64,000 nt of DNA from NCBI RefSeq assembly GCF_021129215.1, contig NZ_JAJOLP010000001.1, forward strand, positions 3,844,001 through 3,908,000, given 5' to 3'. The DNA comes from Agromyces sp. S2-1-8. GTDB lineage: Bacteria; Actinomycetota; Actinomycetes; Actinomycetales; Microbacteriaceae. A program made the translations under genes and the position numbers. Numbering within the stretch: position 1 is the stretch's first letter; each line of letters opens with the position of its first letter. Below are positions 18,301 to 36,901 of the stretch, one piece after another. The notes beneath the pieces were generated by a model. It saw only the letters and a program-made list of their open reading frames with translations. It searched no databases and was not told the origin of the DNA.

Positions 18301-18553
18301 GAAGTCGGGGTCGACGATCCGGTTCGTGGCGAAGGTCGTCGCGCTCGACGGCAGCTCGCCGCTGGGCACGTTCACGGTGTACGACGGCGACGACGTGATC
18401 GCCGAGGTCCCGATGACCGCGGCGGCCGACGGCAGCGTGAGCGTGAAGCTGCCGAAGCTGGGTGCCGGGCTCCATCTCGTGCACGGCGAGTTCACGGGCG
18501 ACGGCGGATTCGGCGATTCGGGGACCGTGACGGTGCCGCTGATCCTCTGGTGA
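12365..18553 (+). CDS. Secreted multidomain GH92 alpha-mannosidase
   Basis: A 2062-residue secreted exo-alpha-mannosidase (GH92 enzymes are Ca-dependent and act on mannan or N-glycan mannose). There is a signal peptide up to about residue 37 (ISAAAA). A discoidin-like (F5/8C, CBM32-type) domain lies near 78-212 and the GH92 region spans about 400-1110. The latter has VDTRRGTNSTGGFSRGNN, GFWDTYRTAWPLYSLLYP and GDEDNGEFSAWYVFSALG, which holds the acidic active-site/metal residues of the family. A second discoidin-like domain (1160-1283), two PKD-like domains, an NPCBM-like region (about 1391-1588) and four Ig-like modules follow. No LPXTG or membrane anchor is seen. The GTG at 12365 follows GGGAG; an upstream GTG at 12344 is less likely. 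Confidence 0.93.
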   Translation: MKQFIRSGNARRTRATATAVITLAMAAAALTPISAAAAPGEVTFQSSFEAGDAVPALAGTGESVNVSGDRNVPGSLLPQVAAVTASGENPPNETAGNLADGNPGSKWLVFSATGWAQYELAEAQPMEAYTLTSGNDAPERDPRDFRVLGSNDGSDWTVVDTRSGESFSARGQTRSFALAAPSAPYRYYRLDITANHSGGLIQLAGWEPISDADAEPVASDLALEVDSGPTSSYTAKTNVGFSGTHALRYAGSHLGAGPAASTSVLYDDLDIAIQADSRLSYTVFPVLDSGQTYASTFVAVDLVLDDGTTLAAADLTDTYGYGADARSQGLANVLWPDQWNKVTVDLGSLAGRTVTGVLLDYDHPGDGVTGVETPAAGTTVLGWLDDISIEEAEPLDTAAGLVSYVDTRRGTNSTGGFSRGNNIPAVGWPNGFNFITPMTNADNTGTIYQYQGANTAQNLPALEGIGFSHQPSIWMGDRNQLAVLPAVGANPTSTLDDRRLTFHHENELARPDVYGVEFDNGITTEVTATDHGAIYRFGFTGDRNSVIVDQLVNSSKLTITGDTVTGWVDGGSGWPGRTRMFVYGTFDARPTTAGPTTQGNRNGSARFAAFDTSGDRTVELRIASSFISQEQAQRNHGLELDGVSFEDAHSAVQQAWNDRLGVIHDVEGATETQLVTLYSSLYRLNLYPNSQFENVGTAGDPEYRYASPVSATTGSATDTTTNAKIVDGKIFVNNGFWDTYRTAWPLYSLLYPDVTEDLVDGFVQQYRDGGWIARWSSPGYADLMTGTSSDVAFAEAYLAGALDTETALEAYDAAVKNATVLPVSNAVGRKGLAQSIFLGYTEESTHESASWGLEGFINDFGIGEMAAALADDPNTPADRVERLLEEADYFAARAGHYAEMFNPEAGTFTARNADGTWPVGADFDQKAWGGAFTEASAKTFGFHAPHDVAGLAALYGGRQGLIDELDEFLTVREKADYSGIHEAREARDVRLGMLGMSNQVAHHIPYVLAEAGDPAEAQALIRDIQQRLFVGSDIGQGYPGDEDNGEFSAWYVFSALGLYPLEVGSGDYTIGTPLFDRATLRIGDRDLVISAPGASAGKTYVSGVSLNGAPIDETTLDGDLLRDGGELEFAMSDEPSDWAAKDLGEELDVPRTLVDATKVGRGTLSAGDATSTAALVDDSMNTTTTFDSGSAELTWTSQSGPVTVGQYTLTGAALDTAPAAWTLSGSTDGENWTELDHRDGEAFDWPTQTRPFSTDADGVFTSLRLDVESGGGPLTLSEVELFASAGTAEGLTVSPAAAQSVAVGTEFTGAVATIVGTETSASGYQVTVDYGDGAGPVESTLTRDDLGGWRVSAPHTFAAPGVYTAAVIVQDSTGAVASAASNVAVARDESLVGSFGSVCIGDLGTTAANCDGQGFGYFRDKLAADGFVQGSTLAIPGTELTYDLPAVAAGEADNITGEGQTVRIDLGTGATQLAFVGTATESARQPEAVLHFTDGTSQTVQISFGDWVGASGNPAFGNTVLAISEGRLSGTAAESQVKNTAIYATAPITIDTDADGAPKVVESLTMPTEEGTLRDGRVHVFAVASDGDRSAATPLDVQPQAVDAQVAGEAFEATLATTTGGAPDQTAIVNWGDGTSVSSVPVVGGDVVGEHTYAVAGEYTVSVTVDDGIRSATTTLEIVVEEPAPVYTPEIAVEPTQSAPGGTIRITGDGFAPGESVELRFADGAPVQTTASGEGAIDAELTVPGDVVDGEYPVTAVGAVSAVEASATLTVLTPAVATTVTLGSEAAEPVAGDLVPFTATVAPAEAGGLVELLEGDVVVGTATVTAGTATVDVRVETSGTHTYTARFTPDNPGAYLGSVSEPFSIEVGDAPVAEAELVLGDDHVVQGGTLQITGRGFGPGELVTVRLHSEPIRIAEITADEEGAFEAVVTIPATAELGDHTLIAEGATSGLSAQATLTVTRATVEVPTFAVGAPNKLLAKSGSTIRFVAKVVALDGSSPLGTFTVYDGDDVIAEVPMTAAADGSVSVKLPKLGAGLHLVHGEFTGDGGFGDSGTVTVPLILW

Positions 18554-25563: not shown

Positions 25564-25577
25564 GTGACCTTGGTCCC
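25564..25577 (+). promoter_or_regulatory. DevR/DosR-type box A, upstream of the first USP gene
   Basis: GTGACCTTGGTCCC closely matches the mycobacterial DosR core GGGACTWWAGTCCC. Its centre is 41.5 bp upstream of the USP start codon at 25612. It should control the USP-alcohol dehydrogenase pair. Confidence 0.75.
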
Positions 25578-25611
25578 GGTGGTCGCCGACGGATCGCCCG
25601 AGAGTCGGAGC

Positions 25612-26064
25612 ATGCAGGAACAACGAAGCAGTGATCGCATCCTCGTCGGCGTCGACGGCTCGGCCTCGTCGGTCGAGGCGCTCCGGTATGCGGCGCGCAT
25701 CGCGGACGCGTTCGGCGCACCGCTCGAGGTTCTGACCACTTGGACCTTCCCGCCGATCGCCGGCGCGTACGTCATCGACGGCTGGTCCCCCGAGGAGGAT
25801 GCCCGGAGCGCCCAGGACGCCGCGATCGAGGAGGCGTTCGACGGCGAGCCTCCCGCCGGACTGCGGCGCGCCGTGCTCGCGGGACCGGCCGCGCGCACGC
25901 TCATCGAGGAGAGCCGTCGCGCGGGCATGCTCGTGCTCGGCAGCAGGGGGCACGGCGGCTTCGCGGGTCTCCTCCTCGGCTCGGTGAGCGCGACCTGCGC
26001 CGAGCACGCGCGCTGCCCCGTGCTCGTGGTGCGCTCCGGCGGCGACCGACCGGAGGGCGCCTGA
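25612..26064 (+). CDS. Universal stress protein, single domain
   Basis: A 150-residue cytoplasmic UspA-fold protein. It starts MQEQRSSDRILVGVDGS; the C-terminal ATP-binding motif G-2x-G-9x-G-S is intact (GSRGHGGFAGLLLGS). ATP-binding USPs of the mycobacterial DosR regulon slow growth under stress (for example Rv2623). The ATG at 25612 fits the USP N-terminus; GGAG abuts it too closely to be a good ribosome site. With box A centred at -41.5, a leaderless message is likely. It probably forms an operon with the alcohol dehydrogenase 39 bp downstream. Confidence 0.93.
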   Translation: MQEQRSSDRILVGVDGSASSVEALRYAARIADAFGAPLEVLTTWTFPPIAGAYVIDGWSPEEDARSAQDAAIEEAFDGEPPAGLRRAVLAGPAARTLIEESRRAGMLVLGSRGHGGFAGLLLGSVSATCAEHARCPVLVVRSGGDRPEGA

Positions 26065-26103
26065 ACCGGCGGACACCACCCCATCTCCCAGATCGGAGCA
26101 CGC

Positions 26104-27087
26104 ATGCTGGCATGGAGGACGGGCGCTCCAGGTGAGCTGGTCCGCGTGGACGCACCCGCGCCCGAGCCGCTCGACGACGAGGTGGTCGTGCGGGTCGAGG
26201 CATGCGGCGTCTGCCGGACGGACCTGCACGTCATCGACCGCGAACTGCCGGTGCACCGCCCCGGCGTGATCCCCGGACACCAGGTCGTGGGTGTCGTGAC
26301 CGGCACGGGTGCCTCGGTCCGCCGGCTCAGGCCAGGCGACCGGGTCGGCATCGCATGGCTGCGACGCACGTGCGGCGCCTGCCGATGGTGCCGCGAAGGG
26401 CGGGAGAACCTCTGCCCGGCTTCCGAGTACACCGGCTGGGACGCCGACGGCGGGTTCGCCGAGTCCGCCACGGTTCCCGAGTCGTTCGCGTACCCCCTCC
26501 CCGCGGGTGCCGACCCCGTCACCACGGCGCCGCTGCTCTGCGCGGGCATCATCGGCTACCGTGCGCTGACCCGCGCGAACCTGCCGGCGGGAGGCAGGCT
26601 CGGGATCTACGGGTTCGGATCGAGCGCGCACCTCACGGCGAAGCTGGCACTCGCCGGCGGCGCCGAACTGCACGTCATGAGCCGAGGGCGCGAGAATCGC
26701 GCCCTCGCCACCCGACTGGGCGCCGTCTTCGTCGGCGACGCCACCGCGACCCCGCCGCAACCGCTCGACTCGGCCATCGTCTTCGCACCCGCGGGCGAGC
26801 TCGTCCCGCTCGCGCTGCGGGCGACCGCGCCCGGCGGCACCGTCGTGCTCGCGGGCATCCACATGACCGACGTTCCGGCCATGAGCTACGGCGAGCACCT
26901 GTTCGGCGAGCGGGACCTGCGCACCGTCACCGCCAACACCCGCGCAGACGGCGCCGCGTTCCTCCGGCTGAGCGGAGCGCTCGACCTCGTGCCGAGCGTC
27001 ACCCGCTACGACCTCGCGCGAGCCGACGCCGCCGTCGACGCGTTGCGTGCCGGCGAGGCATCCGGATCGATCGTGCTGGTGCCGTGA
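26104..27087 (+). CDS. Zinc-dependent alcohol dehydrogenase family protein
   Basis: A 327-residue medium-chain dehydrogenase. Catalytic-zinc ligands are C37 (CGVCRTD) and H59 (PGHQ); structural-zinc cysteines are C90, C93, C96 and C104 (CGACRWCREGRENLC). The nucleotide-binding loop GIYGFGSSAHLTAKLAL is present. It belongs with the zinc-binding alcohol dehydrogenase subgroup found in mycobacteria and in the Streptomyces dormancy island. It has a proper ribosome site (GGAG-CACGC-ATG), as expected for a downstream gene. It may reduce aldehydes and recycle NADH under low oxygen; this is inference. Confidence 0.93.
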   Translation: MLAWRTGAPGELVRVDAPAPEPLDDEVVVRVEACGVCRTDLHVIDRELPVHRPGVIPGHQVVGVVTGTGASVRRLRPGDRVGIAWLRRTCGACRWCREGRENLCPASEYTGWDADGGFAESATVPESFAYPLPAGADPVTTAPLLCAGIIGYRALTRANLPAGGRLGIYGFGSSAHLTAKLALAGGAELHVMSRGRENRALATRLGAVFVGDATATPPQPLDSAIVFAPAGELVPLALRATAPGGTVVLAGIHMTDVPAMSYGEHLFGERDLRTVTANTRADGAAFLRLSGALDLVPSVTRYDLARADAAVDALRAGEASGSIVLVP

Positions 27088-27103
27088 CGCGACGGCGCAC
27101 GAT

Positions 27104-27117
27104 GTGACCTATGGCCC
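27104..27117 (+). promoter_or_regulatory. DevR/DosR-type box B, upstream of the beta-CASP gene
   Basis: GTGACCTATGGCCC is centred exactly 41.5 bp upstream of the start codon at 27152, the same distance as for box A. No ribosome site lies between box and start. Confidence 0.75.
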
Positions 27118-27151
27118 AAGCGGCGAAGCCCGGCACGACGAGGCTGTCGGC

Positions 27152-28513
27152 ATGAACGCGACGCTGCGATTCCTCGGTGCTGCCGACACCGTCACCGGCT
27201 CCCGCTACCTCATCGACACCGGGGCGGCCCGCGTCCTCGTGGACTGCGGGCTCTTCCAGGGCTACAAGGTGCTGCGCGAACGCAACCGCGCCCCGTTCCC
27301 GGTGCCGCCCGAGTCGATCGACGCCGTCGTCCTCAGCCATGCGCACCTCGACCACACCGGGTACTTGCCGGCGCTCGTTCGCGACGGGTTCGCCGGCCGG
27401 GTCCATGCGACCTCGGGCACTGCCGACCTCAGCGAGATCATGCTGCGCGACAGCGCCCACCTGCTGGAGGAGGAGGCGCGACACGCCGCGCACGGGCACT
27501 GGTCGAGGCACACCGACCCGAGGCCCCTGTACACCGTCGCCGATGTCGAGCGAGCCCTCGACCGGCTCCGGCCGGTGGGCTTCGACGAGGAGATCGACCT
27601 CGGCGATCGGTTGTCGGCGACGCTCGTACCCGCCGGGCACATTCTCGGTGCCTCATCCGTGCGGATCGCCGTGGGAGGTCGCATCACCCATTTCACCGGC
27701 GACCTCGGTCGCGACGACGACCCGCTCATGCGACCGCCGCGCCGGTTCGCCGGCGCCGCGGTGCTCGTCACCGAGTCGACGTACGGCAACCGACGACACG
27801 CGCCGATCGATCCCGAGGCGCCGCTCGGCGAGATCATCCGCCGGGTGAGCGCCCGGGGCGGGGTCACGCTCATTCCGGCCTTCGCCGTCGGACGGACGGA
27901 GAGCATCCTCCTGCACCTCTCCCGCCTTCGCGATCGAGGCGAGCTCCCCGACGTGCCGATCTACCTCAACAGCCCGATGGCGGTCGACGTCAGCGCGGTC
28001 TACCAGCGCCATGCAGAGGAGCACCGGATGCCGCCCGACGAACTCGCGAGGATGTACGCGATCGCCACGCCGGTGCACGAGGTCGACGACTCGAAGCTGC
28101 TCAACCTGCGCGGCGGCCCGATGGTCATCATCTCGGCGAGCGGCATGCTGACCGGCGGCCGGATCCTGCACCACCTCGTCGCGTACGGCCCGGACCCCCG
28201 CAACGCCGTCGTGCTGACCGGCTTCCAGGCCGGCGGCACGCGCGGCGCCGCACTCGTCGCCGGCGAACGCTCGCTGCGGATCTTCGGCGAGGACGTCCCG
28301 ATCCGGGCCGAGGTCGTGAACATCGACACGATGTCGGCCCACGCCGACGCCGATGGTGTGATCGCGTGGATGCGCCGGGGGCCGGCGGCCCCCGAGCAGG
28401 TGTACGTCACCCACGGCGAGCCGGCTGCGGCCGATGCACTGCGAGTGCGCATCGAGCGCGAACTCGGGTGGCCCGCCCGTGTGCCGGAGCACGGCGAGCT
28501 CGTCGGGCTCTGA
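27152..28513 (+). CDS. MBL-fold beta-CASP RNase-like protein
   Basis: A 453-residue metallo-beta-lactamase protein of the beta-CASP, CPSF73-like group, which are mostly RNA nucleases. Metal ligands H63, H65, D67 and H68 are in LSHAHLDHTG; further ligands are in PAGHILGAS and FTGDLGRD. The beta-CASP insert shows LIPAFAVGRTESILLHL and VIISASGMLTGGRI; the RMMBL end has DTMSAHAD and YVTHGEP. The start lacks a ribosome site but is set by box B spacing. In a dormancy regulon it could degrade mRNA or rRNA during growth arrest. That role is inference. Confidence 0.92.
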   Translation: MNATLRFLGAADTVTGSRYLIDTGAARVLVDCGLFQGYKVLRERNRAPFPVPPESIDAVVLSHAHLDHTGYLPALVRDGFAGRVHATSGTADLSEIMLRDSAHLLEEEARHAAHGHWSRHTDPRPLYTVADVERALDRLRPVGFDEEIDLGDRLSATLVPAGHILGASSVRIAVGGRITHFTGDLGRDDDPLMRPPRRFAGAAVLVTESTYGNRRHAPIDPEAPLGEIIRRVSARGGVTLIPAFAVGRTESILLHLSRLRDRGELPDVPIYLNSPMAVDVSAVYQRHAEEHRMPPDELARMYAIATPVHEVDDSKLLNLRGGPMVIISASGMLTGGRILHHLVAYGPDPRNAVVLTGFQAGGTRGAALVAGERSLRIFGEDVPIRAEVVNIDTMSAHADADGVIAWMRRGPAAPEQVYVTHGEPAAADALRVRIERELGWPARVPEHGELVGL

Positions 28514-28557
28514 TCCGTGCGCCGACCGGTTCACCGTAACGGGGGCGCCGTGGCCGT

Positions 28558-29205
28558 TCACTCGACGCGGTGCGTCGTCTCGCCGCGCGCGAGCTGGTAG
28601 ACAGCGGCCTGGGTGCGTCGCTCGAAGCCGAGCTTGCGCAGCAGCCCCGAGACGTAGTTCTTCACTGTCTTCTCGGCGAGCGACAGCCGGTCGCCGATCT
28701 GCCGGTTGGTGAGGCCCTCGGCGATGAGGCCCAGGACCTGGCGCTCGCGGAGGTTGAGTGAGCCGAATCGGGGGTCGTTCCGGTCGTCGGCTTCGACGGG
28801 AGGGCGCAGCCGGGCGGCGACGGTCGGGTGGATGAGCGACCTGCCGGCGGCGACCGCCCGGACGGCATCGACGAGGCCGGAGCCGGCGATCGTCTTCAGC
28901 ACGTAGCCCGAGGCACCGGCCATCACGGCCGCCGCCGCCGCGGCGTCGTCGTCGTACGCCGTCAGCATGAGGCACTGGACCTCGGGATGCCTCGACCGGA
29001 TCTCGCGGCAGAGCGCGATCCCGTCGTCGTCCTGGAGGCGCACGTCGAGGACTGCGACGTCGGGCAGGAGCGCGGCGATCCGCACGAGCGCCCGGTCCGC
29101 GCTCGGTGCTTCGCCCACCACTTCGAGGTCGTGCTCGCGCTCGAGCAGCTGCGCCACCCCTCGGCGGACGATCTCGTGGTCGTCGACGAGGAACACCCGG
29201 GTCAT
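28558..29205 (-). CDS. devR: DevR/DosR-like NarL-family response regulator
   Basis: A 215-residue response regulator. The receiver has phospho-acceptor D54 (LDVRLQDDDG), T82 and K104, the same numbers as in M. tuberculosis DosR. The C-terminal LuxR-type HTH reads LAEKTVKNYVSGLLRKLG followed by ERRTQAAVY. K179, K182 and N183, which contact DNA in DosR, are all present at the same positions. Its start overlaps the devS stop by 4 bp (ATGA). DosR-type boxes surround the gene, so it is the likely activator of the 25.5-35.4 kb island. The Streptomyces counterpart is OsdR. Confidence 0.93.
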   Translation of the reverse strand: MTRVFLVDDHEIVRRGVAQLLEREHDLEVVGEAPSADRALVRIAALLPDVAVLDVRLQDDDGIALCREIRSRHPEVQCLMLTAYDDDAAAAAAVMAGASGYVLKTIAGSGLVDAVRAVAAGRSLIHPTVAARLRPPVEADDRNDPRFGSLNLRERQVLGLIAEGLTNRQIGDRLSLAEKTVKNYVSGLLRKLGFERRTQAAVYQLARGETTHRVE

Positions 29206-30920
29206 GGGGCCTCCCGTTCGAAGGGCGCCCGCCAGGCGGCCGTCGTCCGTCCGGCGATCGAATCGATCGCGAATGTGCCCCCGCGTGCCCTCGCCCGGGC
29301 CGCGATGTTCTCGATGCCGCTTCGACGCCCGCCTTCCGGCAGGCCCACCCCGTCGTCCTCCACTTTCACGCCGACCCCGAGGTCGTCGGCCGCGACGGCG
29401 ACGCTCACGCGATGGGCGGACGCGTGCCTGACCGCGTTCGTGAGCAGCTCGCGCACCGTGGCGGTGACGTCGTCGGCGAGCGCCCCGTCGACCGTCAGGT
29501 CGACCGGCCCGTCGAAACTCACGGTGATCGGCTGCGACAGCCCGGGCGAGCACTCGGAGGCGATGTCGAGGACTCGGTGCCGCAGCGACTCGTCCTGCCC
29601 GGGCCGCGGGGTCATCGCGAAGACGATCGTCCGGATCTGCATGATGTCCTCGTCCAGCGTCGCCACCGCCTTGCGGATGCGCTCGGAGAGACGGGCGTCG
29701 TTGATGGTCTCGGCGATCGACTGGAGCTCGAGCCCGGTGCCGAACAGCTGCTGGATCACGTGGTCGTGCAGGTCGCGCGCGATCCGCGAACGGTCCTCGA
29801 CGAGGAGGGCGCGCTGCTGCCGCTCGCGAGCCCTGGCGAGTTCGAGCGCGAGGGCGACCCGGTCGACGAGGTCGGCGGCGATGTCGAGTTCCGCGGCGCT
29901 GAACGCCGGGCGGCTCGGATGCCTCGCGACCGCGAGCACGCCCCAGGTGCCGGAATCGCTGCGGAGCGGCAGGAACATGACGGCGCCCGCGCTCGAGCCG
30001 TCGAGGATGGCAAGCGCGTCGGGGGCGGGATCGTGCCGGCCGCCCGGTCGGACCGCCGGCTCGCCGCGTTCGAACACCTCGCCGGCGCCGGTGGTCGCGG
30101 CGGGGACGACCCGCCCGGTGATCTCCGCTGCGCCGTCGCCCCGTGCCTCCGCGACCCGAACCGTCGGCGGCTCGTCTCCATCGGGCAGGATGACGCAGAC
30201 GCGGTTCGCCGTGGTGCGCGTGATGAGCTCGTCGGCGAGCATCGCCGGCGCCGACCCGTCGACGGACTCGAGGAGTGCAGCGGTGATGTGCGCCGACGCG
30301 GCCATCCACCGCTGCCGCTGGCGGGTCTCCTCGAGCAGGCGGGCATTCGCGATGACGAAGCCCGCTGTGGCTGCGAGCGCGGTCACGAGCTGCTCGTCCT
30401 CCTCGGTGAAGAGTCCGCGCCGCGGGTTCGAGAGATAGAGGTTGCCGTACACCTCCGCTCGCACGCGGATCGGCACACCGAGGAAGGCGTCCATGCTCGG
30501 ATGCCCCGCCGGGAACCCGACCGACCGCGGGTGATCGGAGATGTGCTGCAGGCGGATCGGGCGCGGGTCGTCGATCAGGGCCCCGAGCACGCCCCGGCCT
30601 TCGGGGAGGTGCCCGATGGCCGCCGCCGCGTCGTCCGAGATCCCGACATGGATGAACGCCTCGAGCCCGTCGCCGTCGGCGGCGATCACGCCGAGCGCGC
30701 CGTACTCCGCGTCGACCAGCTCGACGGCCGACTGGGCGATGCGCTCGAGCACCACCGGGAGCTCGGCATGCTCGACGACGGCCTGCGTGGCACGGAGCAG
30801 CGCTTGGAGACGGCCCTGGGTGTGGACCATGGCGTCGGCCCGCTCGGCCAACTCGCGCATGGCGCGATCCAACTCCGACCGCGGCCGGTCGGCGAAGGGC
30901 AACGACGACCGGTCCGACAT
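29202..30920 (-). CDS. devS: DevS/DosS-like GAF-GAF sensor histidine kinase
   Basis: A 572-residue cytoplasmic kinase. GAF-A (about 45-195) has VDAEYGALGV, LPEGRGVLGALIDDPRPIRL and GHPSMDAFLGVP. H140 and Y162 (GNLYL) align with the haem ligand H149 and Y171 of M. tuberculosis DosS, so haem-based O2/NO/CO or redox sensing is likely. GAF-B follows (about 210-365). The HisKA_3 dimerisation helix carries the phospho-acceptor H385 (ARDLHDHVIQQLFGTGL), and the ATPase has ELLTNAVRHA and DDGVGLPEGG. GGAGGAGCC precedes the ATG. Transcribed first, with devR coupled. Haem binding is inferred from alignment by eye. Confidence 0.92.
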   Translation of the reverse strand: MSDRSSLPFADRPRSELDRAMRELAERADAMVHTQGRLQALLRATQAVVEHAELPVVLERIAQSAVELVDAEYGALGVIAADGDGLEAFIHVGISDDAAAAIGHLPEGRGVLGALIDDPRPIRLQHISDHPRSVGFPAGHPSMDAFLGVPIRVRAEVYGNLYLSNPRRGLFTEEDEQLVTALAATAGFVIANARLLEETRQRQRWMAASAHITAALLESVDGSAPAMLADELITRTTANRVCVILPDGDEPPTVRVAEARGDGAAEITGRVVPAATTGAGEVFERGEPAVRPGGRHDPAPDALAILDGSSAGAVMFLPLRSDSGTWGVLAVARHPSRPAFSAAELDIAADLVDRVALALELARARERQQRALLVEDRSRIARDLHDHVIQQLFGTGLELQSIAETINDARLSERIRKAVATLDEDIMQIRTIVFAMTPRPGQDESLRHRVLDIASECSPGLSQPITVSFDGPVDLTVDGALADDVTATVRELLTNAVRHASAHRVSVAVAADDLGVGVKVEDDGVGLPEGGRRSGIENIAARARARGGTFAIDSIAGRTTAAWRAPFEREAP

Positions 30921-30981
30921 GGCTCCTCCGTACGGATGGCGGCAGGTTACCACTCGGGCCCGACGACGGACACCGCGCGAC

Positions 30982-30995
30982 GGGACCAATGGCCC
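30982..30995. promoter_or_regulatory. DevR/DosR-type box C between devS and a two-domain USP gene
   Basis: GGGACCAATGGCCC lies in the divergent region, centred 68.5 bp from the devS ATG and 83.5 bp from the USP GTG. It does not fit the -42 spacing of the other boxes, so it could act on devSR with a leader or work with the weaker site at 31026-31039. Confidence 0.7.
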
Positions 30996-31025
30996 GGTCG
31001 CGTACGACTCCCGTCCGCGAACCTG

Positions 31026-31039
31026 AGAGGGCCGGTCCC
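31026..31039 (+). promoter_or_regulatory. Weak DevR-type site before the USP gene
   Basis: AGAGGGCCGGTCCC keeps a good right half (GGTCCC) but a poor left half. Its centre is 39.5 bp from the GTG at 31072, close to the -42 rule. It may be a secondary site filled cooperatively with box C. Confidence 0.3.
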
Positions 31040-31071
31040 GGATGTGCGGGGCCGAGGAAGGGGCGGAGCGG

Positions 31072-31950
31072 GTGAAGCCGGTACTGGTCGGAGTCGACGG
31101 CTCGATCGCGAGCCGGGCGGCCGTGAGCTGGGCCGTCGAACGCGCCCGCGCGGACGGCCGCGAGGTGGAGTTGCGCTTCGTCGTCGACGACGAATGGGGC
31201 GTCGTCGGGGCTCCTGCGCGCGATGAGCTGCGTGCGGGCGCCGAGGCCCTGGTCCAGCGCGAGCTGGCGTTCGCACGCGGCCCCGCCGGCGCGGTCCCCG
31301 TGCGGGCCGGATTCTCCGTCGGGCCGCCCATCCTCACCCTCGCCGATGCCGCTCGCGACGCCGACGTCGTCGTCGTCGGCACGCACAAGGTCGGTGTCTT
31401 CCACGGAATGGCGCTCGGATCCCGCTCACTGCAGCTCGCCGCGATCTCACCGGTGCCGGTCGCCATCGTGCCCGCACCGTCCGGCGAGTCCCGGAGCGGC
31501 ATCGTCATGGGCGTCGGCGGCGGCATCGACGAAGACGTGGTCGTTCGAGCGGCGGTCGCCGAGTCGAATCGGTCGGGCGAGCCGTTGGTGCTCGTGCGCT
31601 CCTTCACCGACCGCGTGGCCCTCGGCGAGCAGGCGCTCGACCACGCGACGCGGCTCGCCGAGACGCTCGCACCGTCGGCGGGAGTGTCCCGGCGACGGTC
31701 GAGCACATCGGCCGGGGAAGCCCTCGCGGTCATGTCCGGCCAAGCGGTGCTCACGGTGGTCGGGCGGCCGACCGCACCGGGCCAGCACGGGTACCGGCCG
31801 CTCGGACGCGCCGTCTCCGACCTGCTCATGAACCTCCGCGGCCCCGCCCTCGTCGTCCCGTTCCCGCACACCGACGAACGGCGCGAGCGATCGACTTTCT
31901 CAGCGCACCACGATGAACGGAGACCCCATGCGATCCCTGGTCCTGTATGA
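31072..31950 (+). CDS. Universal stress protein, two domains
   Basis: A 292-residue tandem UspA protein. The first domain begins MKPVLVGVDGSIASRAAVSWA; its ATP loop is altered (GTHKVGVFHGMALGS, second glycine replaced by lysine). The second domain is degenerate (VVGRPTAPGQHGYRPLG). The GTG at 31072 gives the standard USP N-terminus and has GGAGCGG nearby; an ATG at 31042 would add ten residues. The 3' end overlaps the flavodoxin gene by 23 bp. It is divergent from devS, much as Rv3134c accompanies devRS in mycobacteria. Confidence 0.88.
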   Translation: MKPVLVGVDGSIASRAAVSWAVERARADGREVELRFVVDDEWGVVGAPARDELRAGAEALVQRELAFARGPAGAVPVRAGFSVGPPILTLADAARDADVVVVGTHKVGVFHGMALGSRSLQLAAISPVPVAIVPAPSGESRSGIVMGVGGGIDEDVVVRAAVAESNRSGEPLVLVRSFTDRVALGEQALDHATRLAETLAPSAGVSRRRSSTSAGEALAVMSGQAVLTVVGRPTAPGQHGYRPLGRAVSDLLMNLRGPALVVPFPHTDERRERSTFSAHHDERRPHAIPGPV

Positions 31951-32479
31951 ATCGATGTTCGGCGTCACCCGTCGCGTCGGAGAGGCCATCGCCGACGGGC
32001 TGCGGGCCTTCGGCGACGCCGACGCCGTGCCCGTGTCGACGGGCGCCGGCGAGGCGGACGACGCGGATCTGGTCGTGATCGGGGTGCCGACCCATGCGCA
32101 CTCCATCCCCGGGCCGAGATCGCGCGCGGAAGCCGCCGAGTGGGCGGCAGATCCCGAACGCGGTCTCGCACTCGAGCCCGGTGCGACCGGGCCGGGCGTC
32201 CGCGAATGGATCAAGGCGCTGGACGCACCGCCGCGGCACTGGGCCGCGTTCGCCACGCGCGCCGATCTCCCGCGGATCCTGGCCGGCGACGGTGCGGTCG
32301 GGATCGAGCGGCGCATGCGGCGCTTGGGCGTTCCCCCGCTGCACGACGGCGAGTGCTTCATCGTGTCCGTCGACAACGCGCTGCTGCCGGGCGAACTCGA
32401 CCGCGCCCGAGCGTGGGGCGGCACCCTCGGTCGCGCGGCGGCCGAGGCGGATCGTGATCGCCGGACCGACGCCGGCTGA
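31928..32479 (+). CDS. Flavodoxin-domain protein
   Basis: A 183-residue flavodoxin-like protein. The FMN phosphate loop is SMFGVTRRVGEAI after the first strand RSLVLYE; DLVVIGVPTHAHSIPGPRS is the second FMN loop. The start at 31928 is chosen because GGAG-ACCCC precedes it, giving MRSLVLYESMFG; the gene starts inside the USP coding end, so the two are translationally linked. It may carry electrons to an unknown partner under low oxygen. Similar flavodoxins accompany USPs in other actinobacterial stress islands. Confidence 0.85.
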   Translation: MRSLVLYESMFGVTRRVGEAIADGLRAFGDADAVPVSTGAGEADDADLVVIGVPTHAHSIPGPRSRAEAAEWAADPERGLALEPGATGPGVREWIKALDAPPRHWAAFATRADLPRILAGDGAVGIERRMRRLGVPPLHDGECFIVSVDNALLPGELDRARAWGGTLGRAAAEADRDRRTDAG

Positions 32480-32496
32480 GCGGAAGGAAGAACGAC

Positions 32497-33330
32497 ATGT
32501 TCGAACGAATCGTGGTCGGTGCCGACGGCTCCCCCGCCTCGGCGGCGGCGGTCGACTGGGCGGCCGCCCGAGCCGGCGAGGCCCAGCTCGTCCTCGTCCA
32601 CGTCGAACGCGACCGCGAGCGGGGCAGCGAGTACCTGAGCGCCACCTCGGAGCGCGCGGGAGCGAGAGTCCGGCTGATCGACGAGGCGGAACGCGTGCGC
32701 GAGGCCCACCCGGGCCTGCACGTCGTGACGTCGACCGAGACCGGACCGGTCGTCGACGTGCTGCGATCGTTCCTGCGACGAGGAACCCTCGTCGTGGTCG
32801 GCCGCGACTCCGATCGGCCCGGGCGCTGGTCGGCCGGCGTCCGACTCGCGGGCTCGCACGGCGGCGGCGGCGTCGCCGTCATCCCGCCCGGAGGTCGGCC
32901 CGGCGGCGGCGAGCTCGGCGTGGTCGTCGGCATCGACGGCTCCGCGCTCGGCGACGCGGTCGTCCGCGTCGCCGCCGACCTCGCGGCGATGACCGGCGAG
33001 CCGTTGACGCTCCTGCACGCGTGGACTGCACCGGCGATGTGGGAGGCGGACCTGAAGCAGTTCGCCGGCGAGTTCGGCGAGTACGAGCAGATGCATCGCG
33101 ACACGCTCGCGGCCGCGATCGATGCGAGCATCGCCTCGGGCGCACAGCCGCATGGCCGGCTCGTGCACGGACGTCCGACCGACGAACTGCTCGAGGCGGC
33201 CGAGCGCGCATCACTGCTCGTCGTGGGCAGCCACAGCGGATCTTCGGTGGCCCGCTTCCTCCTGGGGTCGGTCAGTCACGAGCTCCTGCTCCGAGCCACG
33301 ATCCCCGTGCTCGTCGTGCTCCCCGAATGA
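32497..33330 (+). CDS. Universal stress protein, two domains
   Basis: A 277-residue tandem UspA protein. Domain 1 starts MFERIVVGADGSPASAAAV and has a poor nucleotide loop (VVGRDSDRPGRWSAG). Domain 2 starts VVVGIDGSALGDAV and has GSHSGSSVARFLLGS, where the second glycine of G-2x-G-9x-GS is serine. GGAAGGAAG lies before the ATG, and the gene is 17 bp after the flavodoxin, so the three genes from 31072 form one unit. It is closed by a 32-bp perfect palindrome. Confidence 0.92.
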   Translation: MFERIVVGADGSPASAAAVDWAAARAGEAQLVLVHVERDRERGSEYLSATSERAGARVRLIDEAERVREAHPGLHVVTSTETGPVVDVLRSFLRRGTLVVVGRDSDRPGRWSAGVRLAGSHGGGGVAVIPPGGRPGGGELGVVVGIDGSALGDAVVRVAADLAAMTGEPLTLLHAWTAPAMWEADLKQFAGEFGEYEQMHRDTLAAAIDASIASGAQPHGRLVHGRPTDELLEAAERASLLVVGSHSGSSVARFLLGSVSHELLLRATIPVLVVLPE

Positions 33331-33342
33331 CGTCTGCGCCAC

Positions 33343-33374
33343 GCGCTCACGTGATGCATGCATCACGTGAGCGC
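33343..33374. terminator. 32-bp perfect palindrome between convergent USP genes
   Basis: The sequence is its own complement over 32 bp and contains TCACGTGA twice around a central GCATGC. It lies 12 bp after one USP stop and 4 bp before the other, so a bidirectional terminator is the simple reading. It is less GC-rich than other terminators here and has no T-tract; a protein site is an alternative. Confidence 0.6.
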
Positions 33375-33378
33375 ACCG

Positions 33379-34224
33379 TCATGCGTCGTGCTCCGTTGCG
33401 GCAGTCGGCTCCGACTCCGCCGACGGAACGACCTCCGTCACGACGAGGACCGGGCACGGCGGGTCCAGCAGCAGCATCACGCTCACGGACCCGAGGAAGA
33501 AGCGCCGGATGCGTCCATAGCCGTGGCTCGCGACGACGACGGCCGATGCAGAAGCCCCGAGTTCGTCGAGCAGCTGCGCCGCATCGGCGCGGTGCAGGCG
33601 ACCGCTGCACTCCGCACCGAGTTCTCGGGCGCGCCCGACCGCCTCGTCGAGCGCACGCCGATGCATCGACTCGAAGACCTCGAGGTCGTCGGTGACCTCG
33701 CCGAAGACCGGCGTCCACGTCGACGGCGGGTGCCAGGCATGGACGATCTCGAGGGGCGCTCCGCGCAGACGGGCCTCATCGGCGGCGACCTCGACCGCGG
33801 CGAGCGCCGCCGCCGACCCGTCGATGCCGATCACGACCGGTCGCCCGTCCTCGGGCGGCGGTCCGGGCGGCACGACCGCCACCGTCCCTCCCCCATGACG
33901 GCCCGCCAGCCGGGCGGCGAGGCTCCAGCGCGATCCGCGCTTGTGCGCAGGCGCTCCGACGACGACGAGCGACCCGGGTCGCACCTGTTCGGCGAGCACC
34001 TGCTCGGGCGCCCCTTCGACGACCCGCGTCTCGACGTTCCAGCGCTCGCGGGAGCCATGGCGGGCGAGGACCGCTTCGACGCGCTCCTCGTTGAATCGCG
34101 AGTCGGGGTCTTCGAGCACGTGGAGGAGCACGATCGGAAGACGGTCTCCACGACGCAGCGCCCAGTCCAATGCCGCTTCGGCCTCGGGCGCCCCGTTCCA
34201 GCCGACGATGATCCTGGTGAACAT
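33379..34224 (-). CDS. Universal stress protein, two domains
   Basis: A 281-residue tandem UspA protein, starting MFTRIIVGWNGAPEAEAALDWA. In domain 2 the nucleotide loop is SHGYGRIRRFFLGS, with the first glycine of the motif replaced by alanine (VVASHG). Domain 1 has VVGAPAHKRGSRWSLAARLAG, which is degenerate. There is no ribosome site before the ATG at 34224; box E is centred 42.5 bp upstream, so a leaderless transcript is likely. It reads away from the DUF1003 gene. Confidence 0.92.
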   Translation of the reverse strand: MFTRIIVGWNGAPEAEAALDWALRRGDRLPIVLLHVLEDPDSRFNEERVEAVLARHGSRERWNVETRVVEGAPEQVLAEQVRPGSLVVVGAPAHKRGSRWSLAARLAGRHGGGTVAVVPPGPPPEDGRPVVIGIDGSAAALAAVEVAADEARLRGAPLEIVHAWHPPSTWTPVFGEVTDDLEVFESMHRRALDEAVGRARELGAECSGRLHRADAAQLLDELGASASAVVVASHGYGRIRRFFLGSVSVMLLLDPPCPVLVVTEVVPSAESEPTAATEHDA

Positions 34225-34259
34225 GTGCCACAGCTTCGCGCGTCGCCGCGAGCGACGGC

Positions 34260-34273
34260 GGGTCGAAAGTCAC
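34260..34273 (-). promoter_or_regulatory. DevR/DosR-type box E, upstream of the leftward USP gene
   Basis: On the minus strand GTGACTTTCGACCC, a near match to the mycobacterial DosR core. Its centre is 42.5 bp from the start codon at 34224. Confidence 0.7.
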
Positions 34274-34282
34274 ATCGGATCA

Positions 34283-34296
34283 GGGACCGTTCCTCG
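34283..34296 (+). promoter_or_regulatory. Possible weak DevR-type site before the DUF1003 gene
   Basis: GGGACCGTTCCTCG has a good left half and poor right half. Its centre is 40.5 bp from the ATG at 34330, close to the spacing of the stronger boxes. Position, more than sequence, supports it. Confidence 0.3.
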
Positions 34297-34329
34297 CCGC
34301 GGGCGGTGCGGCGTGCTTTGATTCGGCTC

Positions 34330-34806
34330 ATGGACGACATCGAGGGTGGCGGCCCCGCTCGGGCCGAACGCCCGCTCACGAACTGGCACGAAGAGAACGC
34401 CCGAGGGCTGTCGCGCGGGCAGCGGTCGGCCGACCTCCTCCGCAACGGCATGGGAAGCTGGCCGTTCGTCGCCGGCTTCCTGGCGTTCATGGGGGTGTGG
34501 GCGCTGCTCAACATCACGGCAGCGGCCTGGGATCCGTACCCCTACATCCTGCTCAACCTCTTCCTCAGCATGCTCGCCGGCCTGCAGGGCGCGATCCTGC
34601 TCATCGCCGCGAAACGGCAGGACGCCGTGGCGGCCGCGCTCGCCCAGCACGACTACGAGACCAATCTCGCCGCGAAGACCGAGATCGAGGAGCTCATGGC
34701 CCTCAACCGCACCCAGCTCGCGCTGATCGAGGAACTGCGCGAGCTCTCGCAGGAGCGCGTGGTGCCGGCGTCCCCCCGCCGTCGTCTCCGCCGGTCGCGC
34801 GGCTGA
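34330..34806 (+). CDS. DUF1003 family membrane protein
   Basis: A 158-residue protein of the DUF1003 family. Two hydrophobic helices (WPFVAGFLAFMGVWALLNI and YILLNLFLSMLAGLQGAILLIA) flank WDPYPYILLN, the family hallmark. They are followed by AKRQDAVAAALAQHDYETNLAAKTEIEELM and an Arg-rich tail. The molecular role is not known. The ATG at 34330 lacks a ribosome site and follows TTGATT by 6 nt, so it may be leaderless. It lies in the DevRS island next to two boxes. Confidence 0.88.
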   Translation: MDDIEGGGPARAERPLTNWHEENARGLSRGQRSADLLRNGMGSWPFVAGFLAFMGVWALLNITAAAWDPYPYILLNLFLSMLAGLQGAILLIAAKRQDAVAAALAQHDYETNLAAKTEIEELMALNRTQLALIEELRELSQERVVPASPRRRLRRSRG

Positions 34807-34812
34807 TCCCGC

Positions 34813-34826
34813 GGGACCAAGGTCCC
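34813..34826 (+). promoter_or_regulatory. DevR/DosR-type box D, upstream of a small membrane protein gene
   Basis: GGGACCAAGGTCCC is a perfect 14-bp palindrome except at the two central bases and the best match to the DosR core in the window. Its centre is 42.5 bp from the ATG at 34862. Confidence 0.8.
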
Positions 34827-34861
34827 CGCGGTCGCCGGTCGGGCCGCCGCACGCTGGGCTC

Positions 34862-35347
34862 ATGGAAGACCACCCTCGGATCCGTCTCGCTCTGGTGTGG
34901 ACGCAGGTGTTCGTCGCCGTGACCGCGGTCGCGGGCGGCGTCGCCCTCGCGATCGGTTCGCTCTCCACCGAGCTCATGACGTTGTTGAGCCCACCCGCCG
35001 AGTACCTCGCCGGCTCGCCCTTCGGCAGCTATCTCGTCCCCGGTCTGATCCTCGCCGTCGTCCTGGGCGGCGTTCACGTCGCCGCATTCGTCGCCGTGGT
35101 GCGGCTCAGCGGCTCGGCGCTCGTGCTGTCGGCCGCCGCAGGCTACGCGACGCTCATCTGGATCTTCGTGCAGATGATGTTCATCCCGTTCAGCCCGTTG
35201 CAGCTCCTGTATTTCGCGGTCGGTTCGTTCGAGCTCGGCTTGGTGATGCTCCTGCTCGGCCTCCTCCCCACCCGTGGGACCCTCCATCGCGCGGCGGATG
35301 CCCGGGCGGACCGCGGACTCGGAGGGTCGGCCGCGTTCGAGCGGTAG
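34862..35347 (+). CDS. Small four-helix membrane protein of the DevRS island
   Basis: A 161-residue protein without a family I recognise. Four hydrophobic segments are seen: about 10-32, 55-77, 83-102 and 105-130. The first loop contains SLSTELMTLLSPPAEYLAGSP, and the tail is charged and cytoplasmic. There is no ribosome site before the ATG, which is placed 42.5 bp from the centre of box D. The context makes it a probable hypoxia-induced membrane protein; nothing shows its function. Confidence 0.8.
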   Translation: MEDHPRIRLALVWTQVFVAVTAVAGGVALAIGSLSTELMTLLSPPAEYLAGSPFGSYLVPGLILAVVLGGVHVAAFVAVVRLSGSALVLSAAAGYATLIWIFVQMMFIPFSPLQLLYFAVGSFELGLVMLLLGLLPTRGTLHRAADARADRGLGGSAAFER

Positions 35348-35468: not shown

Positions 35469-36176
35469 GTGAGCGCGACCCCGCCCGTTCCCCCGAAGGC
35501 GAAGCAGCAGGCACAGCGACAGAGCGCGAAGCAGCAGCGCGCGGCCGAGCGGCAACGGCAGCTCGAGGAGTTCAAGAAGCGCGAGGCGCGCTCGAAGCGC
35601 AACCGCCGCATCCTCACCTGGGCGGGCGTCGCCGTCGGCGTCGCCGCGGTCGCGCTGCTCATCACCGCGATCGTGGTCGCCCCGAAGGACACGTCGCCCG
35701 CGGCGGGCGGTGAGGGCGGCTCCGGCACGGGCGCGATCGAAGGCGTGCAGACCTTCTCGTACCAGGGCGGAGGGCACGTCGAGGGCGAGGTCGACTACGC
35801 CGAGACGCCGCCGGCGGGCGGCGACCACAACGCGGTGTGGCTCAACTGCGGCGTGTACGGCCAGCCGGTGCCGAACGAGAACGCCGTGCACTCGCTCGAG
35901 CACGGCGCCGTGTGGGTGACGGTCGACCCCGACCTGCCGGCCGACGAGCTCGGCAAGCTCACCGCCGAACTTCCGACGTCGTACGTCGTGCTGTCGCCGT
36001 ACGACGGCCTGCCCTCCCCCATCGTGCTCAGCGCCTGGAACGCGCAGCTGCAGGTCGACGACGCCGCCGACCCGCGCATCGCGCAGTTCATCGAGCAGTA
36101 CTGGCAGAGCTCGGCGGCCCCCGAACCGGGCGCTCCCTGCTCGGGCGCCTACGACGCGCCCGGCAAGCTGTCGTGA
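35469..36176 (+). CDS. DUF3105 family membrane-anchored protein
   Basis: A 235-residue protein. A Lys/Gln/Arg-rich cytoplasmic N-terminus of about 50 residues precedes one helix (ILTWAGVAVGVAAVALLITAIVV). An extracellular DUF3105 domain follows with AGGDHNAVWLNCGVYGQPV and HSLEHGAVWVT, whose conserved His and Cys suggest metal or redox chemistry. The GTG at 35469 follows GAGAGG. It overlaps the DUF305 gene by 4 bp (GTGA); the pair is common in actinobacteria. The function is not established. Confidence 0.9.
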   Translation: MSATPPVPPKAKQQAQRQSAKQQRAAERQRQLEEFKKREARSKRNRRILTWAGVAVGVAAVALLITAIVVAPKDTSPAAGGEGGSGTGAIEGVQTFSYQGGGHVEGEVDYAETPPAGGDHNAVWLNCGVYGQPVPNENAVHSLEHGAVWVTVDPDLPADELGKLTAELPTSYVVLSPYDGLPSPIVLSAWNAQLQVDDAADPRIAQFIEQYWQSSAAPEPGAPCSGAYDAPGKLS

Positions 36177-36901
36177 GCGCGCCGGCCGACGCTCCCGCCG
36201 GCGCGGTCGAGTCGGCCGACGCCTTTCCCTCGGCCGACCGTGCCGGGCTCGACGGCGAGCGACGCGGCAGCCGGATCGCGGCGGTGGTCGCGGCATCCGT
36301 CGCCGTCGTGGTGGTCGCGATCGCCGCGTTCTCGATCGGGCGGCTCTCGGCCCTCGGCGACCCGACGCCGACCGGCACGAGCGCCGAAGCCGGCTTCGCG
36401 CGCGACATGCAGGTGCACCACCAGCAGGGCGTCGAGCTCGCGATGATCGTTCGCGACGCGACCGACGACGACGAGGTGCGCCTGCTCGCGTACGACATGG
36501 CGACGACGCAGGCGCAGCAGGCCGGCCAGATGTACGGCTGGCTGAGCGCATGGGGCCTCCCGCAGGCGGGCGACGAGCCGTCGATGACGTGGATGACGCG
36601 TGCCGCGCCCGGCGGCGTGCACGACAGGCACTCGGCCGGGGTGGACCACGAGCCGGGCGCGCCGATGCCCGGCCTCGCGACGAGCGAGCAGGTGGCCGAA
36701 CTCCGTACGCTGTCCGGCGCGGCGGCGGAGCGGCGGTTCCTCGAACTCATGATCGCGCACCATCAGGGCGCCGTCGAGATGGCCGACGCGCTGCTCGAGC
36801 GATCGTCGAACGAGGCGGCGACCGCACTCGCGCGCTCGATCGTCACGAGCCAGACGAGCGAGATCGAACTCATGCAGCAGATGCTCGCCGACCGCTCCTG
36901 A
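36173..36901 (+). CDS. DUF305 family membrane-anchored protein
   Basis: A 242-residue protein with one N-terminal helix (IAAVVAASVAVVVVAIAAFSIG) and an extracellular DUF305 domain of the ferritin-like type. It shows FARDMQVHHQQGVELAM in the first half and FLELMIAHHQGAVEMADALL in the second, the paired HHQ motifs of the family. DUF305 proteins are often linked to copper or other metals. The GTG start at 36173 overlaps the DUF3105 stop, so the two are coupled. The gene ends just before the convergent MFS gene. Confidence 0.92.
   Translation: MSAPADAPAGAVESADAFPSADRAGLDGERRGSRIAAVVAASVAVVVVAIAAFSIGRLSALGDPTPTGTSAEAGFARDMQVHHQQGVELAMIVRDATDDDEVRLLAYDMATTQAQQAGQMYGWLSAWGLPQAGDEPSMTWMTRAAPGGVHDRHSAGVDHEPGAPMPGLATSEQVAELRTLSGAAAERRFLELMIAHHQGAVEMADALLERSSNEAATALARSIVTSQTSEIELMQQMLADRS

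Follow-up and report, generated by a model that had tools for sequence, protein, structure and literature searches.

The described systems that come closest to the locus reported here are the DevR/DosR-DevS/DosT regulon of Mycobacterium and the OsdKR regulon of Streptomyces coelicolor. As far as the available portions of the cited papers report, the Dev box nearest the start overlaps the -35 region in M. tuberculosis (PMC3029386), the stringent M. smegmatis consensus GGGACTTNNGNCCCT carries T at box position 6 (PMC6448022), and the S. coelicolor pyridoxamine oxidase gene SCO0214 has a predicted OsdR site at -50 (PMC5069765). Leaderless mRNAs account, by the same kind of source, for nearly 25% in M. 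tuberculosis (PMC10799931) and for 38 to 40% of primary starts in M. marinum (PMC8022548).

Here, we describe, in a GC-rich and apparently actinobacterial genome, an island of USP and redox genes surrounding a DevR-like regulator and a DevS-like kinase. The window, by which we mean the whole 64-kb stretch of DNA analysed, contains what we consider, at a probability of roughly 0.85, to be a DevRS (DosRS/OsdKR-type) dormancy regulon gathered in one island, with class II, mostly leaderless promoters. A DevR/DosR-type regulon had been proposed in a first-pass annotation of this DNA, and the regulator, the kinase, the box and the gene set lend it support, as does the box number, which tracks devS in the genus.

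Gene content, regulator and kinase

The features of the island are collected in Table 1. Its target set is USP-rich, with four USP genes, three of these box-led, and the alcohol dehydrogenase gene is probably co-transcribed with usp1. RNase TTHA0252 is the closest solved relative of the beta-CASP protein (residues 8-426, E 3.4e-73); assignments of this protein as Cas14 (348.6 bits versus 800 required) and as aCPSF1 (249.1 versus 580.2 bits) were rejected. Pfam and NCBIfam searches gave no match for the membrane-type protein. No HspX-type HSP20, a common but not defining DevR/DosR target, occurs among the island genes; box-led HSP20 genes are present in the islands of three relatives.

Table 1. 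Genes, DevR-type boxes and -10-like hexamers of the island, in window coordinates
Feature	Position	Strand	Remarks
DevR-type box 1	25564..25577	+	GTGACCTTGGTCCC
-10-like hexamer GAGAGT (usp1)	25600..25605	+	T 7 nt ahead of ATG
usp1, USP gene	25612-26064	+	Pfam Usp, 3.9e-30; box start to ATG, 48 nt; leaderless by prediction
Zinc-type alcohol dehydrogenase (TIGR02822)	26104-27087	+	39 nt downstream of usp1
DevR-type box 2	27104..27117	+	GTGACCTATGGCCC
-10-like hexamer GAGGCT (beta-CASP)	27140..27145	+	T 7 nt ahead of ATG
MBL/beta-CASP/RMMBL protein	27152-28513	+	Box start to ATG, 48 nt; leaderless by prediction
DevR/DosR-like response regulator	28558-29205	-	Response_reg and GerE
DevS-like GAF-GAF-HisKA_3 histidine kinase	29202-30920	-	Pfam domains, structure matches
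DevR-type box 3	30982..30995	+	GGGACCAATGGCCC; between devS and usp2
-10-like hexamer GAACCT (usp2)	31019..31024	+	Predicted transcription start 31031
usp2, USP gene	31042-31950	+	Start ATG 31042 (60 nt from box start) or GTG 31072
fld, flavodoxin-like	31928-32479	+	Weak: Pfam score under cut-off; homologues behind same promoter elsewhere
usp3, tandem USP gene	32497-33330	+	Pfam
usp4, tandem USP gene	33379-34224	-	Box start to ATG, 49 nt; leader of 1 nt predicted
-10-like hexamer GAAGCT (usp4)	34232..34237	-	Spacing to ATG one base off
DevR-type box 4	34260..34273	-	GTGACTTTCGACCC
DUF1003 protein	34330-34806	+	Start 34330 re-checked
DevR-type box 5	34813..34826	+	GGGACCAAGGTCCC, perfect palindrome
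-10-like hexamer CACGCT (membrane protein)	34850..34855	+	T 7 nt ahead of ATG
161-aa membrane-type protein	34862-35347	+	Box start to ATG, 49 nt; leaderless by prediction

The gene list of the first-pass annotation was largely recovered: USPs, dehydrogenase, beta-CASP, flavodoxin-like and DUF1003 genes were found, whereas its "four-helix protein" corresponds to no single gene. It had further counted several members as not standard in the mycobacterial set. This holds for the beta-CASP protein but not for the flavodoxin, whose genes are preceded by this promoter at five loci in two further genera of the order, nor for the DUF1003 gene, which is rejected as a promoter-led gene because no promoter of the box/-10 layout faces it.

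The best PDB match of the regulator is DevR (3c3w, over residues 1-204, E 7.7e-64), with VraR next (4.4e-42), and Asp54 lies in ungapped register with 3c3w. The first GAF domain of the kinase, GAF-A, matches 2vzw, which we take to be DosT (3.7e-44), and, at values around 1e-40 to 1e-39, entries for DevS. The kinase and regulator proposed in the first pass are thus confirmed by domains and PDB matches. His140 of the kinase is aligned with chain position 92 of 2w3d, presumably residue 149, the heme-ligand His of DosS GAF-A, if the construct begins at 63; together with Tyr162 (counted by eye), it lines up with the His and the Tyr of the DosS pocket. GAF-A may therefore be a heme-binding, oxygen/NO-sensing domain. 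With heme binding read from aligned residues, it is conceivable that DevS instead responds to redox, CO or another ligand and that the locus is a stress island rather than an oxygen/NO dormancy regulon. This is the alternative that we take most seriously, yet we regard it as unlikely in view of the GAF-A matches and the aligned pocket residues.

Promoter layout

A pattern scan of the window found exact GKGACYWWNGNCCC matches at the five boxes that the first-pass annotation had placed there, and no sixth. Read forward, all five have a -10-like A...T core 37-38 nt past the box start, the gap between box and -10 being 22-23 nt; read in reverse, none is (0/5), which rejects the boxes as two-way elements. 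Relative to the predicted start, the palindromic box ends near -35 in front of the members. At usp1, the beta-CASP gene, usp4 and the membrane protein gene, four promoters of five in the window, 48 or 49 nt separate the box start from the ATG, which coincides with the predicted start of transcription or follows it by one base. "Leaderless" is used here as a prediction from -10/ATG spacing, with the -10 T placed 7 nt upstream of the first base of the start codon; this applies to usp1, the beta-CASP gene and the membrane protein gene and not to usp2, which has a predicted leader of 11 nt from the ATG or 41 nt from the GTG.

The same layout was found in relatives. Loci were taken from 22 of the 23 devS-bearing relatives, omitting one whose devS match ends at a contig edge. 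In this island set of 53 box matches, the ATG lies at 48/49 nt in 35; 28 of these have A...T at +37 and the remaining 7 have it at +38. Among the other 18 matches, 15 have A...T at +37. Alignment of 34 promoters at their ATG or GTG (36 initially, two being removed for frames below 60 aa) gave A-11 in 29, T-7 in 29, G-6 in 25, G-13 in 23 and C-1 in 32, none of these bases having played a part in selection. A matrix built from 29 promoters taken from relatives scored the four window promoters at 22.6-28.6, the next score being -0.6 and the reversed control 1.1.

The distance between box and ATG was also examined across the genus, in a histogram covering 150 of 165 matches. Among the matches listed, 36 of the 130 in devS-positive genomes have a spacing of 34/35 nt (P 5e-14 if an even spread is assumed), layout P values of this kind being too small because related promoters are not independent. 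The corresponding share in devS-negative genomes, 4 of 20 among the matches listed, is not different by Fisher's test (P 0.59), and the contrast between the two groups therefore rests in the number per genome. Among the matches listed there are also peaks of 12 at both 23 nt and 26 nt and of 8 at 25 nt; by our own reading, the 23- and 26-nt peaks fit ATGs within the -10 element.

Could the same DevRS regulon, with the same layout, produce mRNAs that are not functionally leaderless, the start codons lying downstream or transcription beginning a few bases upstream, with promoter and coding start simply pressed together? The usp2 gene and the Hsp20 genes of the relatives combine the same core with leaders, and an ATG at 49 nt with A...T at +37 predicts a 1-nt leader, as for usp4. 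This reading is nevertheless improbable, and more so than another DevS signal, given the ATG position in the island set and the C that precedes the start codon in nearly all aligned promoters; in addition, the next start codons of usp1 and the beta-CASP gene fall within the homologous domain.

Distribution of devS, boxes and the full motif

In the genus, devS is present in 24 of 60 genomes, our own counted. The pattern "box, 20-50 nt, ATG" occurs on average 5.9 times per genome with devS versus 0.64 without, with a reversed control of 0.33 in both groups. Narrowed to 34-35 nt, it totals 47 in the 24 devS-positive versus 4 in the 36 devS-negative genomes and is present in 21/24 versus 4/36, missing from three devS-positive genomes; one of the four sites in devS-negative genomes has both A-11 and T-7.

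This dependence on devS bears on whether a different regulator, or a sigma factor reading the box as a -35 element, drives the island, with the DevRS pair as a bystander. The genome holds 23 further matches to the regulator at E<=1e-10, but the best paralogue is only 44% identical and the regulator has AEKTVKNYVS in common with DevR 3c3w. A gap of 22-23 nt is, moreover, too long for a single sigma factor. We therefore consider an unrelated driver very improbable and retain DevR as the putative activator.

Across the order, 39 of 297 genomes carry the full promoter motif, with 53 matches between them (38 genomes and 50 matches once our own is removed). The reversed control had none, and a gap 6 nt shorter gave three. 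With devS presence defined as a match at E<=1e-70, the motif was found in 27 of 75 devS-positive versus 12 of 222 devS-negative genomes, so that 12 of the 39 motif-bearing genomes have no such match. Genes behind the full motif include USPs, flavodoxins, WS/DGAT and nitroreductases, and 7 of 81 motif matches lead into complete frames below 80 aa.

Two genome-wide scans for fuller promoters added no accepted member from elsewhere in the genome. One, allowing one mismatch and using the +37 core, is blind to boxes 3 and 5, whose core lies at +38; it returned three island sites and five others versus four reversed matches. The other, requiring A...T plus ATG, is blind to usp2 and usp4 and returned three island sites only. 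Weak or differently spaced members may thus be missed, and the description of the regulon as compact in the first-pass annotation holds within these two scans, neither of which covers every allowed spacing or weak box.

The whole 4.10-Mb genome has 11 exact box matches at 10 distinct sites, the palindromic box 5 being counted on both strands. Five of the 10 sites lie in the island (binomial P 1.5e-11), which answers the call of the first-pass annotation to compare the boxes with random placement: they are clustered. With one mismatch tolerated, the window has 8 matches versus a shuffle mean of 2.37, and 8 were reached in 1 of 100 shuffles. That the boxes are chance or codon-driven matches can be dismissed, for although 15 devS-negative genus genomes total 43 exact matches (about 3 each), 10 devS-positive genomes of the same sample total 98, and clustering and fixed layout contradict chance.

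Proposed mechanism and implications

Starting from what the sequence itself offers, namely the related regulator and kinase, the boxes, the fixed promoter layout and the link to devS, we infer the heme signal, DevR binding, start sites, leaderless translation and product roles as follows. The DevS kinase would sense low oxygen or NO via heme in its first GAF domain and phosphorylate DevR. A DevR dimer would then occupy the 14-bp palindrome and activate in class II fashion, with the box end at about -35 and the -10 A...T at a fixed distance, and transcription would begin 48-49 nt from the box start. With transcription predicted to begin on the first base of the start codon or the base ahead of it, the mRNAs of usp1, the beta-CASP gene and the membrane protein gene would be leaderless and that of usp4 would have a 1-nt leader; usp2 would combine the same core with an ordinary leader. 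The USPs may protect resting cells, the alcohol dehydrogenase and flavodoxin may handle redox, and the beta-CASP protein may process RNA.

It is tempting to go further and to speculate that DevR-family regulons follow a promoter grammar throughout the phylum (one box, a 22-23 nt gap, an A...T -10 and a start codon at the transcription start), with dormancy messages leaderless by design and the box-led beta-CASP RNase reshaping other mRNA. We hold this extension tentatively and at less than even odds; the full motif was found in just 16 of 396 phylum genomes. If it were true, a resting cell could translate its dormancy messages with leader-dependent initiation shut down. In M. tuberculosis reporters, leaderless translation was less affected by NO and starvation, according to the available part of that study (PMC8485053), which makes a link between switch and leaderless translation directly testable. 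Independently of such a grammar, the island offers a DevR/DosR-type switch with local targets and, in the genus, natural absences of devS usable as controls, and it replaces a loose box by a countable rule of box, gap, -10 and start codon that predicts members from sequence.

Comparison with known systems

Within the literature available to us, our search found no paper joining DosR with Microbacteriaceae. In the accessible parts of that literature it also found no statement that a dormancy regulon is leaderless as a rule, although one may exist in print. Mycobacterial leaderless genes share the -10-like element and the start placed on the ATG. Unlike in those genes, one regulator's box is tied here to the start codon at a fixed spacing, for which the accessible texts gave no counterpart.

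The locus resembles the Mycobacterium DevR regulon in its regulator, closest to DevR 3c3w, in its GAF-A domain, closest to DosT/DevS structures, in the palindromic GGGAC...CCC box, in the USPs and, judging from the available part of PMC3029386, in a start-proximal box overlapping -35. Box-led HSP20 is a further likeness confined to the islands of the relatives. It differs in being a single local island with five boxes and in having a beta-CASP protein and an alcohol dehydrogenase as members; in contrast to RNase TTHA0252, the beta-CASP protein sits in a DevR-box island. Boxes of the window type, GKGACC, usually have C at position 6, unlike GGGACTTNNGNCCCT.

The remaining comparison, with OsdKR of S. 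coelicolor, draws on the available part of PMC5069765. The OsdR consensus, AGGGCCGATCGGCCCT, differs from the window boxes, though GGGACCTTCGGCCC, a sequence compatible with the window pattern, occurs in some sites (those predicted for SCO5979, SCO0167 and SCO0216). Predicted OsdR sites are scattered between -391 and +36, which shows that S. coelicolor does not follow a fixed spacing throughout, and the word "leaderless" is absent from the OsdKR paper. Several predicted sites nevertheless lie at -47 to -53, USPs are found close to the two-component genes, and a USP and alcohol dehydrogenase unit (SCO0200-SCO0198) stands under the regulator, as proposed here for usp1 and its neighbour.

Boxes and promoter layout in the island

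The five 14-bp boxes on which the first-pass annotation had based a DevR/DosR-type dormancy regulon proved exact at every position, and the window has no further exact match. Five of the 10 distinct box sites genome-wide are packed in 9.3 kb (P 1.5e-11), in the gene order usp1-adh, beta-CASP, devR and devS (-), usp2-fld-usp3, usp4 (-), DUF1003, and membrane protein gene. Among solved structures, RNase TTHA0252 is nearest to the beta-CASP protein.

Coordinates of boxes and side features (window positions unless a genome or locus is named)
Feature	Position	Strand	Box start to ATG (nt)	Predicted leader (nt)	Observation
Box 1, usp1	25564	+	48	none	
Box 2, beta-CASP gene	27104	+	48	none	
Box 3, usp2	30982	+	60	11 or 41	
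Box 4, usp4	34260	-	49	1	
Box 5, membrane protein gene	34813	+	49	none	
161-aa protein	34862-35347				no Pfam/NCBIfam match; relatives' homologs box-led too
Two genes right of island	35469-36901				second with DUF305; DevR-type box absent upstream in exact-match window scan
Long open frame	12422-18553				one frame, 2043 codons
Match outside island	G000:C1:1343405-1343446	-			promoter core with one mismatch; may be chance
Relative's DevS, L057	G060:C1:785733-786872				534-aa frame; box upstream
Pyridox_ox_2 gene	L040 7916-8338				box-led, with homologs, repeatedly in genus, order, and phylum samples
HSP20 genes of three relatives' islands	L041 7302-7772; L042 12034-12471; L048 11450-11914				box-led, ordinary leader

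The promoter set comprised devS surroundings of up to 20 kb from 22 relatives, plus the window. Promoters were selected solely by box and spacing and then aligned at the start codon; 36 were found and two dropped. In the remaining 34, A-11 (29), T-7 (29), G-6 (25), G-13 (23), and C-1 (32) were conserved, which, judged by sequence, looks like a -10 element with transcription starting on the ATG. Of 18 matches without ATG at 48/49 nt, an ATG-independent set, 15 had the A...T pair at +37 and one had it at +38; no other offset between +20 and +59 had more than two. All five window boxes carried it at +37 or +38 in their annotated orientation and none in the reverse direction. With a matrix trained on 29 relatives' promoters, four window promoters scored 22.6 to 28.6, the next window candidate -0.6, and reversed sequence at most 1.1. 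Box and -10 element lie too far apart for an ordinary sigma-dependent promoter, and their spacing suits class II activation from a site centered near -41.5; in M. tuberculosis, the Dev box nearest to the start site overlaps the -35 region (PMC3029386). From the layout, we infer start sites that would entail leaderless translation.

Regulator and sensor kinase

Over residues 1 to 204, the regulator aligned with DevR (3c3w; 7.7e-64), followed by VraR (4.4e-42), and its closest paralog in the same genome is 44% identical. The kinase contains two GAF domains, HisKA_3, and HATPase. Its first GAF domain matched 2vzw (3.7e-44), which we take to be DosT, and DevS structures (about 1e-40 to 1e-39). Kinase His140 aligned to chain position 92 of 2w3d, which is residue 149, the heme-ligand histidine, provided that the construct begins at residue 63. 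At the sequence level, the kinship of both proteins with DevR/DevS, the boxes, their layout, and the link to devS are evident; DevR would bind the boxes, and the kinase would sense oxygen or NO via heme. In one relative's DevS, L057, the match within a single frame is confined to window-kinase residues 27-203 and 365-571, so the second GAF domain seems to be absent.

Occurrence in relatives and larger samples

In 17 of the 22 relatives, a box separates devS from its divergent neighbor. At least 7 of the 22 islands include beta-CASP (72 to 79% identity); both counts depend on a simple gene caller that can choose antisense frames.

Across 60 genus genomes, own included, 24 had a DevS match (E<=1e-60), two of them partial. 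The pattern of box, 20 to 50 nt, and ATG averaged 5.9 per genome with devS versus 0.64 without (reversed control, 0.33 in either group). Its 34- to 35-nt form gave 47 sites in 21 of 24 devS-positive genomes versus 4 sites in 4 of 36 devS-negative ones (reversed matches, 3), and one of these four sites, in G040, had the -10-like A...T. Among the matches listed, 34/35-nt spacing accounted for 36 of 130 with devS and 4 of 20 without, no difference by Fisher test; the devS-positive matches also peaked at 23 nt (12), 25 nt (8), and 26 nt (12).

The full motif (box, fixed gap, A...T, and ATG) occurred 53 times in 39 of 297 order genomes (50 in 38 excluding the own genome; reversed, 0), and a gap 6 nt shorter gave 3 matches (reversed, 1). 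By devS status (E<=1e-70), 27 of 75 genomes with devS carried it versus 12 of 222 without. In the phylum sample, it occurred in 16 of 396 genomes (reversed, 1 match).

In the loci analyzed, 37 of 81 distinct sites precede a gene whose product is homologous to one encoded in the window (USPs, 25; flavodoxins, 5; membrane proteins, 4; beta-CASP from the own genome, devS, and devR, 1 each) and 44 do not. Seven run into complete frames below 80 aa, their ATGs probably being chance. A Pfam search of products from 20 of the 81 sites returned Pyridox_ox_2 (5 proteins), nitroreductase (2), E1-E2 ATPase (2), WS/DGAT, phosphoribosyltransferase, flavodoxin, Band_7, phosphoketolase, CoA-binding, carboxylesterase, and response regulator; no family matched two of the products, and another gave a weak match. 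It was the phylum sample that yielded WS/DGAT and nitroreductase. Several of the families returned also belong to the M. tuberculosis DosR set.

Comparison with known systems

Mycobacteria commonly have leaderless mRNAs (PMC10799931, PMC8022548), and no statement that the dormancy regulon is leaderless as a rule was found in the excerpts of the literature on dormancy regulon and leaderless mRNA. The USP-alcohol dehydrogenase pairing is common to the island and OsdKR of S. coelicolor. According to PMC5069765, the OsdR consensus there is AGGGCCGATCGGCCCT, but GGGACCTTCGGCCC occurs within some of the predicted sites. Their predicted positions range from -391 to +36, among them those of SCO0214 (pyridoxamine oxidase; -50), SCO6041 (-51), SCO0216 (-53), and SCO2637 (-53). 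SCO0214 is of the same kind as the Pyridox_ox_2 members. If positions are counted from the first base, a point on which PMC5069765 is silent, the 14-nt core of a 16-nt site at -50 would fall near -49, as in the island. The DevR-type regulon is known and the island is a further example of it; what merits testing is the promoter rule.
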